64,000 bases of DNA, taken from Olsenella profusa F0195 (GTDB lineage: Bacteria > Actinomycetota > Coriobacteriia > Coriobacteriales > Atopobiaceae). Position numbers and translations under genes: made by a program. The first letter of the stretch is position 1. Every line of letters begins with the position of its first letter. The notes beneath the pieces were generated by a model that saw only the letters and a program-made list of their open reading frames with translations, made no database searches and was not told the DNA's origin. The stretch is from positions 53,126 through 117,125 of the forward strand of contig NZ_AWEZ01000006.1 of NCBI RefSeq assembly GCF_000468755.1. The letters run 5' to 3'. Positions 60,398 to 64,000 of this stretch are shown here, one piece after another.

Positions 60398-60889
60398 ATG
60401 CCCAGGAGGGAGAGGATAGCCAAGACCAACGCCATGCGCGAGCTGGAGCGCGGTGGCGTTGCCTACACGGCCCACGAGCATGAGGAGGGCGACCTCTCGC
60501 GCGGCCTGGGACTGCGCATGGCCGAGGAGGCGGGCGAGGATCCCGCAAGCCAGTTCAAGACGCTCGTGTGTGTGGCCCCGAACGGCGACCACGTGGTGTG
60601 CTGCCTGCCCGTGGGCGAGGAGCTCGACTTCAAGAAGGCCGCGGCGGCGGCAGGGGAGAAGGCGCTCTCGATGCTACCCACCAGGGAGCTGGAGCCCCTC
60701 ACGGGCTACGTGCGGGGCGGCTGCACGTCCGTGGGCATGAGGAGGCGGTTTCCCACCCTCATCGACGAGACTGCGCAGCTCTTCGACCGCATCGGCATAT
60801 CGGGCGGCAGGCGCGGCCTGGGCCTGCGCGTGAATCCGGAGGAGCTGGCGGCTCTCATCGGCGCGACGTTTGCGGACATCTGCCGGTAG
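60398..60889 (+). CDS. ybaK: Cys-tRNA(Pro) deacylase YbaK/EbsC
   Basis: A 163-residue protein. KTNAMRELERGGVAYTAHEH at the N-terminus, SQFKTLVCV, and PLTGYVRGGCTSVGMRR are the YbaK signatures, including the invariant lysine in FKTL. It hydrolyses mischarged Cys-tRNA(Pro). It is translated right after uvrA, probably co-transcribed. It converges on the low-GC peptide locus. Confidence 0.93.
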   Translation: MPRRERIAKTNAMRELERGGVAYTAHEHEEGDLSRGLGLRMAEEAGEDPASQFKTLVCVAPNGDHVVCCLPVGEELDFKKAAAAAGEKALSMLPTRELEPLTGYVRGGCTSVGMRRRFPTLIDETAQLFDRIGISGGRRGLGLRVNPEELAALIGATFADICR

Positions 60890-60934
60890 CGAGACCTTCT
60901 TAGAGGTAAGGTGTGCTAGAGATGTTCATATGGG

Positions 60935-61090
60935 CTACAACTTGGAATCTCCCCGCTGTTTGAGAGCGGCAATGAGATAGAGGGTTACATTGAGAGCGAG
61001 CAGCCCGATGACGATTGCCATGTCTGGTAGCGCTCCCGGAGTACCAGACAGATAGCGATCAACGCTGTTTTTTACCAGTACAAAGTTCAT
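60935..61090 (-). CDS. 51-residue membrane peptide, coupled to the M50-like gene
   Basis: Starts at ATG 61090-61088, overlapping the stop of the preceding gene (ATGA). After SVDRYLSGTPGALPDM there is one hydrophobic helix (AIVIGLLALNVTLYLIAAL) and a basic end KQRGDSKL. It could be a true small membrane protein. It could equally be the C-terminal end of a larger membrane protein, such as an ABC-2 permease or the M50-like protein, left after a deletion. Confidence 0.45.
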   Translation of the reverse strand: MNFVLVKNSVDRYLSGTPGALPDMAIVIGLLALNVTLYLIAALKQRGDSKL

Positions 61091-61686
61091 GGGCAGCGTG
61101 CAAAGGGGTTGGTCTGTACGATAGGGAATCGCATCCTGATACCAAGAGATACTTCCGCATGTAAGTCAAGCGACCTGGCAGCGAGTATATGGAATGACTC
61201 ATGCACGGCAATAATTATCCAGGAGAGTACCGTCAAAATAAGCAAGTTCACGGCGCTGCTCTGGGTTACTAAGACGGTATCATATGTAGGAAAAGGAATG
61301 ATCCCGAGCATATACGATCCGATGGCCATGACTAGAAGGGCTATAAAAAGAATATAGGCAGGTGCGCAAAAAGGAATGCCTGCATAGTTGCTTTGGATAT
61401 GATCGAACATGTTATTCTTCACCTGTGGCCGATCAAGAATTTGCGCACTTCTCAGAGTCTTGAGGAACGCTTCTATATCTATGTCTGCATCGAATCTCTC
61501 GAGCGTAAGGTCATGAATCTCCGGGATGCTCCGTGTGCCGTCCATCATGGAGATAACCTGGATGCCAATCTCTGGTACCTGTACGAACTTCTGGCCATTC
61601 CCAAGGAGGAATATTCCATTCTCTTCTTCAGTGATGATGAGAGATTTCAGGTTAGGATATGTCATTAACTCATCATCTTGCGTCAT
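61087..61686 (-). CDS. PqqD-like domain fused to M50-like (HExxH) membrane segment, ends early
   Basis: A 199-residue protein. Residues about 10-88 (IITEEENGIFLLGNGQKFVQ to LKTLRSAQIL) resemble a PqqD/RRE winged helix, which binds leader peptides in peptide-modifying systems. Two hydrophobic helices follow (about 107-131 and 140-162). The second leads into VHESFHILAARSLDLHAEVSLG, with an HExxH zinc motif at 162-166 as in site-2-protease-like M50 proteins. Normal members continue for 150 or more residues; this one stops at TNPFARCP, so a deletion is suspected. Its start overlaps the M14 gene stop (ATGA). Confidence 0.6.
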   Translation of the reverse strand: MTQDDELMTYPNLKSLIITEEENGIFLLGNGQKFVQVPEIGIQVISMMDGTRSIPEIHDLTLERFDADIDIEAFLKTLRSAQILDRPQVKNNMFDHIQSNYAGIPFCAPAYILFIALLVMAIGSYMLGIIPFPTYDTVLVTQSSAVNLLILTVLSWIIIAVHESFHILAARSLDLHAEVSLGIRMRFPIVQTNPFARCP

Positions 61687-62906
61687 ATCTGTTCACCCAC
61701 AAACGCCCGAATGATGCCGTCAGCGACGCGCTCCACGTCCGATGTACCAATCGTGCTCACAGCGGGCGCGAGATGGGCCAGTTCGGCGAAGCACTGTGCG
61801 CTGCCACCAATCTCTCTTCCGAGAGCGCGCGCCATCTGGGCATATTGAGTTGCTATCGAGAATACGAGTCCGAAATAGCGATCAACCGCCTCGTCTCTGG
61901 GCCACTCTTGCATTTGATTGCAAACCGAATGTACGTAGGCGCTATCGCTTGTGCGTCGTTCCCAGAATTCTCTAGGTGACGAAAGGAGCAGGTCAGTGGT
62001 TGTACCAGCATTCTTGCGCGGGAAAACTGTGCAGAGATCGTCTTCGAAGTGAGACCATAGAATTTTTAGACGCACTGCGAACTCATCCGGCGTACCGGGG
62101 ACAAGGGCGGCGTCAAGCGAAAAGAGTGGCAACTCGAGCACGAGTGATCGGCAGGACTTACCCATGTATTCAAAACTCGCAGCTCCATTTGTGTAGTCCG
62201 AGCCGAAGTCACCCGCACTCTTGAGGAAATCAATCTCATGCTCGGCGAGGGGTAAGCTGAACACACCTTTGGCGAGGCTGTTACAGTAGGGAACGGGTGT
62301 ATGTCGTAGGACCTCAAGGCCGGAGTCAGCAAGGACTCCGGCAATAGCCAGTGCGAGGGATGCGTCAGGACCACCTGCATAGGCGTAGGCTGCCCCGACG
62401 GTTCCGTTGTGCAATGAGATGAGTCCGTCCGGATGGATACGGTCGATGAGCCGAGCCACGGCAGCCGTTTCCGGTAGCACCGTCTCATGCTCATAGTCGT
62501 TGTAAGAGAGGGGAAAGTCCCATTCCACCTGGTACCTCGTTGCCGCCCTGAACCAGCCTTCGACCATGCCAGTAAGCGTTAGACCATTTGGTTGTGACCA
62601 CCAAAGCTCGTTCATGTGCGCGCCGTCAACATCCCAGACTGGCACCAACCACCAAGTGTCCCTGCCTGTTCCAGTCATTAGTGCTGCTCGTTCGAGTAAA
62701 TGGAGGATCACAACCTGCGAGAGCGGCTCATTGGGATGTGGGAAGCCGAGAATCAACAGCTTTCTGGGCAGGCCATCGATAGCATATGCAACGACTTCCC
62801 GTCCTTGAGAGCTCGTGCCGATTCGCACTCTTCGTATGTCTAGCCCGAAGCCAGCGGCAGTTCTCTCTATACCCGCCAGGTAATCATCGACTGTTTCGAG
62901 TCGCAT
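61683..62906 (-). CDS. M14-family zinc carboxypeptidase-like protein
   Basis: A 407-residue protein. The zinc ligands HxxE (His57-Pro-Asn-Glu60 in GFPHPNEP) and His166 (ISLHNGTVG), with a likely catalytic Glu258 (LVLELP), fit M14 peptidases. RIGTSSQGREVVAYAIDG is the standard lead-in. No signal peptide, so it acts in the cytoplasm. Start ATG 62906-62904 has GGGAGGAGAAGG; the longer frame to 63116 overlaps the ThiF-like gene. Given its neighbours it may trim a modified peptide or act as an immunity enzyme. GC content is lower than average. Confidence 0.78.
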   Translation of the reverse strand: MRLETVDDYLAGIERTAAGFGLDIRRVRIGTSSQGREVVAYAIDGLPRKLLILGFPHPNEPLSQVVILHLLERAALMTGTGRDTWWLVPVWDVDGAHMNELWWSQPNGLTLTGMVEGWFRAATRYQVEWDFPLSYNDYEHETVLPETAAVARLIDRIHPDGLISLHNGTVGAAYAYAGGPDASLALAIAGVLADSGLEVLRHTPVPYCNSLAKGVFSLPLAEHEIDFLKSAGDFGSDYTNGAASFEYMGKSCRSLVLELPLFSLDAALVPGTPDEFAVRLKILWSHFEDDLCTVFPRKNAGTTTDLLLSSPREFWERRTSDSAYVHSVCNQMQEWPRDEAVDRYFGLVFSIATQYAQMARALGREIGGSAQCFAELAHLAPAVSTIGTSDVERVADGIIRAFVGEQI

Positions 62907-63966
62907 CCTTCTCCTCCCTTGACGAGCAGACGGGGCATGTGTCCATCCGTTGCCATCTCTGTCGAGTTGTCGTATACGTGGCCATATCAAGCATGAGTGA
63001 CGTACCCATGAGAGAGCATGGAGCATATCCTGACACGTACCTGATGACTTCGTCGCTCGTGATGGCTCCGATCGAAAGGCATAGAGGTCCATAGGACGGA
63101 ATCTTGCGACCTGCATTCATTGCTATATCATCGACCTCACCGATTTGCTCAAGGATACATTGGTAGCAAGCGGTTTCCCCCGGTACGACAAGAGGGCCTG
63201 CGATGCCGACATGTTCGCTGAAACCAGCGAAGATGAATGACGTGCCCGTGCTGACGCACAAGCGATTGACCATCTCCCTAGCGCTTCGTACCGGTCGATC
63301 TATTGTGGAGACAACAATATCAGAATCATGAACCGTTTCGGCCAAGAAGCCATCCGTCTTGACTGTTGTCATCAATGCTGAGATGGTAATGGATGGGTTA
63401 ATGCGCTTCAGCGCATCAGTAGCAGCCTCGACCTTAGGCCTGTCGATATCTGCGTAGGAAAAGAGAGTTTGCTGAATGAGGTTACTTTCCTCAACTTGGT
63501 CGTCATCTATAATTGTCGGTCTTCCGACCCCAGCGCGAGCAAGCGTCTCTGCGATAATTGATCCGATGCCTCCAATCCCAAGGATAGTGACATGTGAATG
63601 CATGATGGCGCTTAGCATATTTGGTACTCGCAGATAATTGCCCTGCATCGCGAAGTAAAGCGCCTCACGCATAAGCCGACTATTATCGAGAACTCGCGAA
63701 GCGGCATCCGCATCGATAAGGTACCCAACATCAAGTAGTTGTTGGATAAGCGACTCTACATTGTCTACGGGCATTCCAAAAGTACTACTCAGGGTAGATG
63801 CAACAGCTTTCCTGTCGGCAGGTATCAAGAAATGCGAAAGAATGCCAAGTACTTGAAAGGGCGCATTCTCTATCTTCGTGCCCGTTCCAGGATGATTGCC
63901 CAATCGGATATCGTTCGTTTTAGAATTCAGATAGAGTGGTCTAAACTGGTTTATCACACATCTCAT
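62884..63966 (-). CDS. MccB/ThiF-like E1 adenylating enzyme (5' end near window edge)
   Basis: A 360-residue protein. Residues 1-115 form a winged-helix-like peptide-binding part. LGIGGIGSII (129-138) is the ATP loop, then IIDDDQVEESNLIQQ and DIDRPKVEAA. Zinc is held by Cys267, Cys270, Cys344 and Cys347 (TACYQC, TCPVC). The layout matches MccB, which adenylates the C-terminus of a microcin peptide, better than ThiF or MoeB. The frame stays open upstream to the window edge, so the start at ATG 63966 is provisional. It overlaps the M14 gene by 23 bases. A precursor peptide is expected beyond the right edge. Confidence 0.75.
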   Translation of the reverse strand: MRCVINQFRPLYLNSKTNDIRLGNHPGTGTKIENAPFQVLGILSHFLIPADRKAVASTLSSTFGMPVDNVESLIQQLLDVGYLIDADAASRVLDNSRLMREALYFAMQGNYLRVPNMLSAIMHSHVTILGIGGIGSIIAETLARAGVGRPTIIDDDQVEESNLIQQTLFSYADIDRPKVEAATDALKRINPSITISALMTTVKTDGFLAETVHDSDIVVSTIDRPVRSAREMVNRLCVSTGTSFIFAGFSEHVGIAGPLVVPGETACYQCILEQIGEVDDIAMNAGRKIPSYGPLCLSIGAITSDEVIRYVSGYAPCSLMGTSLMLDMATYTTTRQRWQRMDTCPVCSSREEKDATRNSR

Positions 63967-64000
63967 TTTCGTTATCCCATAGTAAGAAGCCCGGGATTCC

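Follow-up and report, generated by a model that had tools for sequence, protein, structure and literature searches.

The window analysed here, a stretch of 64,000 nucleotides from Olsenella profusa F0195 (contig NZ_AWEZ01000006.1, positions 53,126 to 117,125), closes with a block of overlapping minus-strand open reading frames (ORFs) comprising genes for an adenylating enzyme of the MccB type (E1), an M14-type carboxypeptidase, and a protein in which an RRE domain (RiPP recognition element, where RiPP stands for ribosomally synthesized and post-translationally modified peptide) is joined to an M50-type protease. The features of the block are as follows.

62884..63966, minus strand: RRE-E1 ORF, MccB-like adenylating enzyme of 360 amino acids (aa)
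61683..62906 (ATG at 62906), minus strand: M14-type carboxypeptidase ORF, 407 aa
61087..61686, minus strand: N-terminal part of the RRE(PqqD)-M50 protein, 199-aa ORF
60935..61090, minus strand: C-terminal remnant of the M50 protein, 51-aa ORF whose start overlaps the stop of the 61087 ORF
63988..64000, strand not given: 3' arm of a hairpin between the precursor gene and E1, folded in the complete genome G039

Neighbouring ORFs share 23, 4, and 4 bases (E1/M14, M14/61087, and 61087/60935, respectively), and the G+C content of the block is 0.47-0.57 vs about 0.65-0.72 across uvrA/ybaK. An earlier note, made from the letters alone, had described overlapping low-G+C genes of the E1, M14, and PqqD/HExxH types on the minus strand, and the ORF coordinates, G+C values, and domain matches agree with it; its count of four genes has to be amended, since a single M50 protein is split over the 61087 and 60935 ORFs, which hold its two ends. 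The note also placed a short conserved precursor and an exporter beyond position 64000. The window ends there together with contig C6 of its own genome, so that the contig itself cannot be followed further, and the DNA missing before E1 was found by DNA match on contig C29 of the same genome. The same locus is present in G039, a complete genome of the same species, flanked by uvrA/ybaK and a histidine operon (histidine genes by Pfam). The note would have taken thiamine, molybdopterin, or cysteine genes upstream, or homologues that never co-occur, as evidence against a peptide-modification system; the histidine operon, the co-occurrence of homologues elsewhere, and the conserved precursor described below all bear its proposal out.

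The expected precursor lies before E1 on C29 (C29:48-116) as a 22-aa ORF, MTTIEVKPVEEVSTTCHVDQHC, with the ribosome-binding site GAGGAGATGA. It is identical in G039, where it follows the ribosome-binding site GAGGAGGTGA and stops 73 bases ahead of the E1 start. The hairpin between the two genes has a folding energy of -26.7 kcal/mol (z -3.58, folded in G039), and the window's assembly breaks inside it. Four loci in Bacillota metagenome-assembled genomes (MAGs) came out of a scan in which each GTDB species was represented by one genome. In the Bacillota MAG locus L014 the genes for E1, M14, and a full-length 380-aa RRE-M50 protein are arranged in the window's order and likewise overlap, and E1 is preceded by the gene for a peptide of 21 aa, MKIQVKKVEDVQTTCHVDQNC; the last two residues are HC in the window's peptide and NC in that of L014. 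Of the eight codons for TTCHVDQ and the final C, six differ between the window species and L014, all synonymously, which argues strongly for translation of the peptide and for selection on it. Moreover, the core is conserved residue by residue while the enzymes share about 36% identity (about 36% for E1, about 36% for M14, and 33% for the M50 part), which suggests that the product is under strong selection. A leader profile built from 10 other peptides, with those of the window and L014 left out, was run against 5,236 distinct small ORFs from the loci collected; the L014 peptide ranked 14th (E 0.039), and the top 16 ORFs all adjoin an E1 or M50 gene. A short precursor with a conserved leader and a variable core, as in ThiF-type RiPPs, is therefore found next to E1, and the 12 peptides that neighbour E1 all end in a small residue (G, A, S, T, V, or C).

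The E1 protein shows the MccB layout predicted by the note in its Pfam domain, in its nearest sequences of solved structure, and in its predicted fold. Its domains and two deviating residues are the following.

Residues 1-93 (about 63688-63966), minus strand: RRE-like domain, from the predicted model
Residues 119-342, minus strand: ThiF domain (Pfam ThiF, 9.7e-47)
Residue 165 (63472..63474), minus strand: Gln in the window, Arg in the 14 other alignment rows (NLxRQ, ATP site)
Residue 175 (63442..63444), minus strand: Asp in the window, Gly in the 14 other alignment rows

The best PDB sequence matches are MccB (3h5a, E 1.4e-28), followed by MoeB and ThiF, and further down PaaA (5ff5, E 3.3e-14). 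Among the fold matches of the model the first 24 are MccB chains, followed by PaaA, nearly over the full length and with a template-modelling (TM) score of about 0.64; the Foldseek E value for PaaA 5ff5 is 1.9e-23. The mean predicted local distance difference test (pLDDT) score is 79.9, with low to middling values (about 52-77) in the N-terminal domain, for which strands at 2-5, 11-14, and 19-22 and helices at 37-45, 52-63, and 67-80 are modelled. The near full-length match to MccB and PaaA and this predicted secondary structure point to an RRE fused to a ThiF-like adenylating enzyme. The other residues of the ATP site are conserved across the aligned relatives, the window copy deviating at 165 and 175, and several of the 14 comparison rows come from the same species or from near-identical or close relatives. 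A reading of the locus as a defence system was set aside: among the PADLOC matches listed (25 of 32), all are E1-E2 models and touch E1 only.

The 61087 ORF contains, as the note had seen, a PqqD domain (residues 32-84, 23.5 bits against a Pfam cut-off of 23.4) and an HExxH motif, HESFH, at 61189-61203. It aligns to residues 6-188 of the ~380-aa M50 protein of L014, where the homology ends, while the 60935 frame aligns to the last ~60 M50 residues, its open frame and homology beginning slightly upstream of the ATG. The latter match scores 46 against P0012 (shuffle maximum 37); against 10 relatives, the score was reached by 0 of 300 shuffles in three cases and by 1 to 70 shuffles in the other seven. 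Between the two pieces about 128 residues are gone from both strains at the same junction, and with them FxMRTDxYY, present in full-length relatives, which we take to be the second M50 metal motif. The window copy accordingly has the HExxH motif of a site-2-type protease without the metal motif of the later helix, and the membrane processing proposed in the note cannot be assumed for it. Between the strains both pieces show an excess of third-codon-position changes (p 0.0016 and 0.035) and low ratios of nonsynonymous to synonymous substitution rates (dN/dS 0.25 and 0.28), which count against plain decay and suggest that the pieces may still be used; a plain dead remnant is weakened by these codon-position counts. 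Among 25 full-length relatives, Pfam M50 was found in 21 and PqqD in 8, and the nearest named models were a daptide protease for 11 and an epipeptide protease for one (NCBIfam NF041824, NF058609).

The full-length M50 relatives led further to records of a plasmid collection, of which 10 of 27 were examined. Leader peptides, one or more per locus and each preceded by a ribosome-binding site of the GGAG or GGGG type, occur in all 11 distinct E1+M50 locus types examined (window species, L014, L023, L029, L037, L030, L031, L032, L033/L036/L039, L034/L035, and L038). Among four loci with M50 and no E1 match in the stretch examined, two carry a leader peptide directly before M50: L022 (2764-2841) and L021 (2812-2916), the latter without a clear binding site. 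No leader peptide was found in L024, and L040 has a candidate by eye only. Since RRE-M50 genes can have a leader peptide and no E1 neighbour, the M50 protein may serve other modification enzymes as well. The MccB-nearest E1, the conserved precursor, and the co-occurring leader peptides together identify the locus as a ThiF-type RiPP cassette. It has also been considered whether E1 activates a carrier peptide of the ThiS, CysO, or QbsE type for a thiocarboxylate, M14 trimming its end, since ThiF and MoeB are strong relatives of E1 too and a terminal GG or GGG is seen in some peptides of the family (L023, L037). However, peptides of 18-40 aa with a conserved leader are too short for a ubiquitin fold, their C-termini are variable, they occur together with an RRE domain and an RRE-M50 protease, and the genes upstream are for histidine, which makes a sulfur-carrier system very improbable.

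Other members of the family differ in their partners. On plasmid pJEK46-1 of Macrococcus armenti (L032, 2572-6681) genes for E1, a 25-aa Arg-containing peptide, an arginase-family protein, an isochorismatase-family protein, and RRE-M50 lie in a row. The arginase may turn the peptide Arg into ornithine, by analogy with BipC, which carries out this conversion (PMC12707348). In a plasmid of Priestia koreensis (L038, 3003-3279) the gene for a 21-aa peptide is present in three identical tandem copies before E1, and genes for substrate-binding-like proteins and an MFS transporter lie downstream. G039 carries a second ThiF locus (L070 7177-12420, G039:C1, about 31-36 kb) with a 72-aa Cys-rich peptide ORF, two RRE-ThiF-like genes, and a UvrA-like gene; its E1s have no counterpart among the E1 matches in the window's genome. 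Bacillota MAGs also contain other RRE-E1 genes beside short peptides ending in WYFI or WYII (L067 10783-10848 and 11030-11104; L069 9250-9306), which resemble the NWYFI end of the IndA peptide (PMC12150305).

The M14 protein is a carboxypeptidase, as the note had named it, by its predicted fold, whereas its sequence match remains under the Pfam cut-off (18.0 vs 21.6 bits). The model has a pLDDT of 91, and the best Foldseek match is carboxypeptidase A4 (E 9.5e-9, with a modest query TM of about 0.3-0.42), the fold matches being carboxypeptidases and putative metallopeptidases of that fold. H57, E60, H166, and Glu258 are unchanged in 16 of 16 alignment rows and in 9 of 9 rows of a second alignment; from the M14 family we presume the first three to be metal ligands and Glu258 to be catalytic. 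The HxxE...H pattern, the catalytic Glu, and the carboxypeptidase fold of an M14 metallocarboxypeptidase are hence all found. The gene occurs in 8 of the 42 genomes of the order of L014. L014 itself has the whole operon, L015 and L083 have E1 fragments beside M14, and in L082, L084, L085, L086, and L087 no E1 or M50 match accompanies M14 in the 15-18 kb read, so that in seven of the eight genomes M14 is intact without an intact E1 beside it. No E1 of the L014 type was found elsewhere in these seven genomes (best scores about 118 bits or less vs 704). All eight M14 frames are open and retain the metal site, and six pairs among them give dN/dS of 0.16-0.23. In L017, a MAG outside the 42, both E1 and M14 are broken. 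No M14 relatives were found on viral contigs. Two groups of relatives were set aside: those of genus g33 in the same family (L010-L012), which align over a part of M14 only at about 33% identity and lack an E1 or M50 match in the 20 kb covered, and the plasmid matches H2-H4, judged generic from their listing alone.

The persistence of intact M14 where this E1 is gone makes protection likelier than the trimming suggested in the note. By analogy with MccB-type systems, in which immunity peptidases are encoded inside clusters as well as on their own (PMC9239234), M14 is likely to hydrolyse the product as self-protection. An M14 acting in maturation would instead remove the C-terminal Cys to leave ...VDQN or ...VDQH, the residue which E1 would then adenylate to give a peptide-nucleotide, in L014 on Asn as in microcin C. 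Such a role would fit an M14 encoded within the operon and overlapping E1 in both lineages, the rank of MccB as the nearest solved relative of E1, and the L014 peptide, whose NC end would become an Asn C-terminus like that of MccA. The trimmed window peptide would, however, end in His, all 12 E1-side peptides already end in a small residue with no need for trimming, and M14 stays intact without this E1; a maturation role is therefore considered unlikely. The same standalone M14 genes, in seven of the eight Bacillota genomes, are what could be said for chance neighbours in a low-G+C island. Against this stand the same order and overlaps in L014, an Actinacidiphila plasmid on which M14 lies, divergent, beside E1 and M50, and a Streptosporangiaceae MAG in which M14 and M50 occupy the adjacent locus tags 07405 and 07410, and a chance arrangement is hardly credible.

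Of the 396 genomes of the class, two have the cassette, both from the window's species, three further matches being a different M14, and the cassette is likely to have been acquired horizontally and to have partly decayed. Between the two strains the synonymous divergence (dS) is 0.14-0.20 for M14, the M50 pieces, and ybaK and 0.01-0.02 for E1 and uvrA, a jump which suggests a recombined block (window 60398-62883 vs the G039 locus L009). For M14, dN/dS is 0.27 with a third-position excess (p 0.0012). The substitutions at E1 165 and 175 and the M50 truncation indicate that the window copy is probably impaired, and production in the window strain is probably lost or weak. A stronger version would have the cassette make nothing in this species, with M14 alone, or M14 and the leader-binding piece of M50, being kept against producing neighbours. 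The changes at two otherwise invariant E1 positions, the M50 truncation common to both strains, the selective constraint on M14, and the M14 kept beside a broken E1 in Bacillota too would agree with this. Nevertheless, the usual residues Arg165 and Gly175 are kept in G039 and in P0069, the representative of 52 clustered sequences, and both strains have the same peptide; the loss of production from the whole species is thus somewhat unlikely.

The explanation which is judged rather probable is a RiPP cassette consisting of a peptide, a leader-binding RRE-E1 that activates its C-terminus, an M50 protease for release, and M14 for protection. Both RRE domains, in E1 and in M50, would hold the peptide leader, and E1 would adenylate the peptide C-terminus with ATP, as do, by analogy, MccB, PaaA, GrcB, EnfB, and IndF. 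The most plausible ring would be a thiolactone of seven residues, with the CHVDQxC Cys as the probable nucleophile; GrcB, however, links the C-terminal Cys to an internal Glu (PMC12250964). M50 would then cut near TT to free the modified end, and may export it, as suggested for EpeP, and M14 would hydrolyse the product and so protect the cell.

Several observations weigh against this explanation. The window peptide ranks only 16th in the leader profile among the small ORFs, which is weak alone (E 0.39), and the family peptides have no single nucleophile in common, thiolactone closure being a guess for CHVDQxC. The exporter expected by the note was not recognised in the 20-kb stretch of G039, where the ORFs at 4.5-14.5 kb were read and ten larger ORFs, but no small ones, were scanned with Pfam, nor by eye in the 6.9-kb MAG contig of L014; other biosynthetic genes were likewise not recognised among the same G039 ORFs, one of the ten larger ones having no family. 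As for M14, its predicted carboxypeptidase fold does not tell its substrate, distant relatives are common (14 of 246 genomes), the standalone genes could have an unrelated older role, and some of the seven genomes (G785, G807, and G813) have more distant RRE-E1 genes elsewhere, which M14 might serve.

A broader proposal can be made tentatively, with a confidence a little short of even. The leader micro-peptide (I-x-V-R-x-L-E-K-V-E-T-T) and the RRE protease would form the core of an undescribed RiPP superfamily in Actinomycetota and Bacillota, in which E1 and the hydrolases or other partners (M14; arginase with isochorismatase; substrate-binding-like proteins) are exchangeable. The branch found in the window would produce a cyclised CHVDQxC peptide that has been conserved between phyla, and its M14 would be a resistance enzyme outliving the producer genes. 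ThiF-type RiPP enzymes form unusual bonds (phosphoramidate, thiolactone, indolylamide, imide) and few examples have been worked out; the cassette represents a further branch, which brings its own protease and possibly a protective enzyme. Its substrate of 21-22 residues is small enough for synthesis and direct testing, and the cassette offers a testable rule, by which a standalone M14 of this family would indicate that its host has encountered products of this sort.

RiPPs of the ThiF type whose E1 is fused to an RRE have already been described, and their number is growing (PMC12150305, PMC12250964). With pantocin A the cassette shares the RRE-E1 fold of PaaA, while its precursor is different and no pantocin partner genes were noticed in L009 or L014. 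The metalloproteases of daptide and epipeptide clusters provide the nearest named models for the M50 family, although the M50 of L014 reaches only 42 bits against a cut-off of 300, carries an added N-terminal PqqD domain, and has E1 as its partner. According to PMC10885120, the M50 proteins found with RiPPs act as proteases and perhaps exporters (EpeP) or remove C-terminal residues (TglG, TmoG).

The GRC, enterofaecin, and indolylamide systems (GrcB, EnfB, IndF) likewise combine an RRE-E1 with a short peptide, and Arg167, Lys180, and Asp225 of EnfB (PMC12250964) match E1 residues 165, 178, and 223 by spacing only, EnfB not being in the alignment. They differ from the cassette, which has no radical S-adenosylmethionine (SAM) or M16 protease gene and a TTCHVDQxC core vs a WYFI or WWIVI end; the radical SAM and standalone RRE genes found beside E1 in GRC clusters were recognised neither in L009 nor in L014.

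The closest resemblance in enzyme sequence and fold is to microcin C, since the RRE-fused E1 is nearest to MccB, and a very short precursor lies directly before E1. A hairpin also lies between mccA and mccB, as it does between the precursor and E1 here. The hydrolase stands alone in some genomes, as reported for MccG in PMC9239234, which also counts a dedicated exporter in the minimal three-gene set; none was recognised among the larger ORFs of the G039 20 kb. The precursor here has 21-22 aa with a leader, vs 7 aa ending in Asn, and its HC and NC ends are unlike the Asn end that receives the nucleotide, which trimming could alter; M14 takes the place of MccF or the S51-family MccG, and an RRE-M50 protease is added. 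An RRE-M50 or M14 partner of a ThiF-type RiPP was not met in the literature searched, the scope of which excluded supplements and most subscription papers. The candidate undescribed system of the earlier note thus belongs to a kind that is already known, and the RRE-M50 and M14 partners mark it as a new variant.

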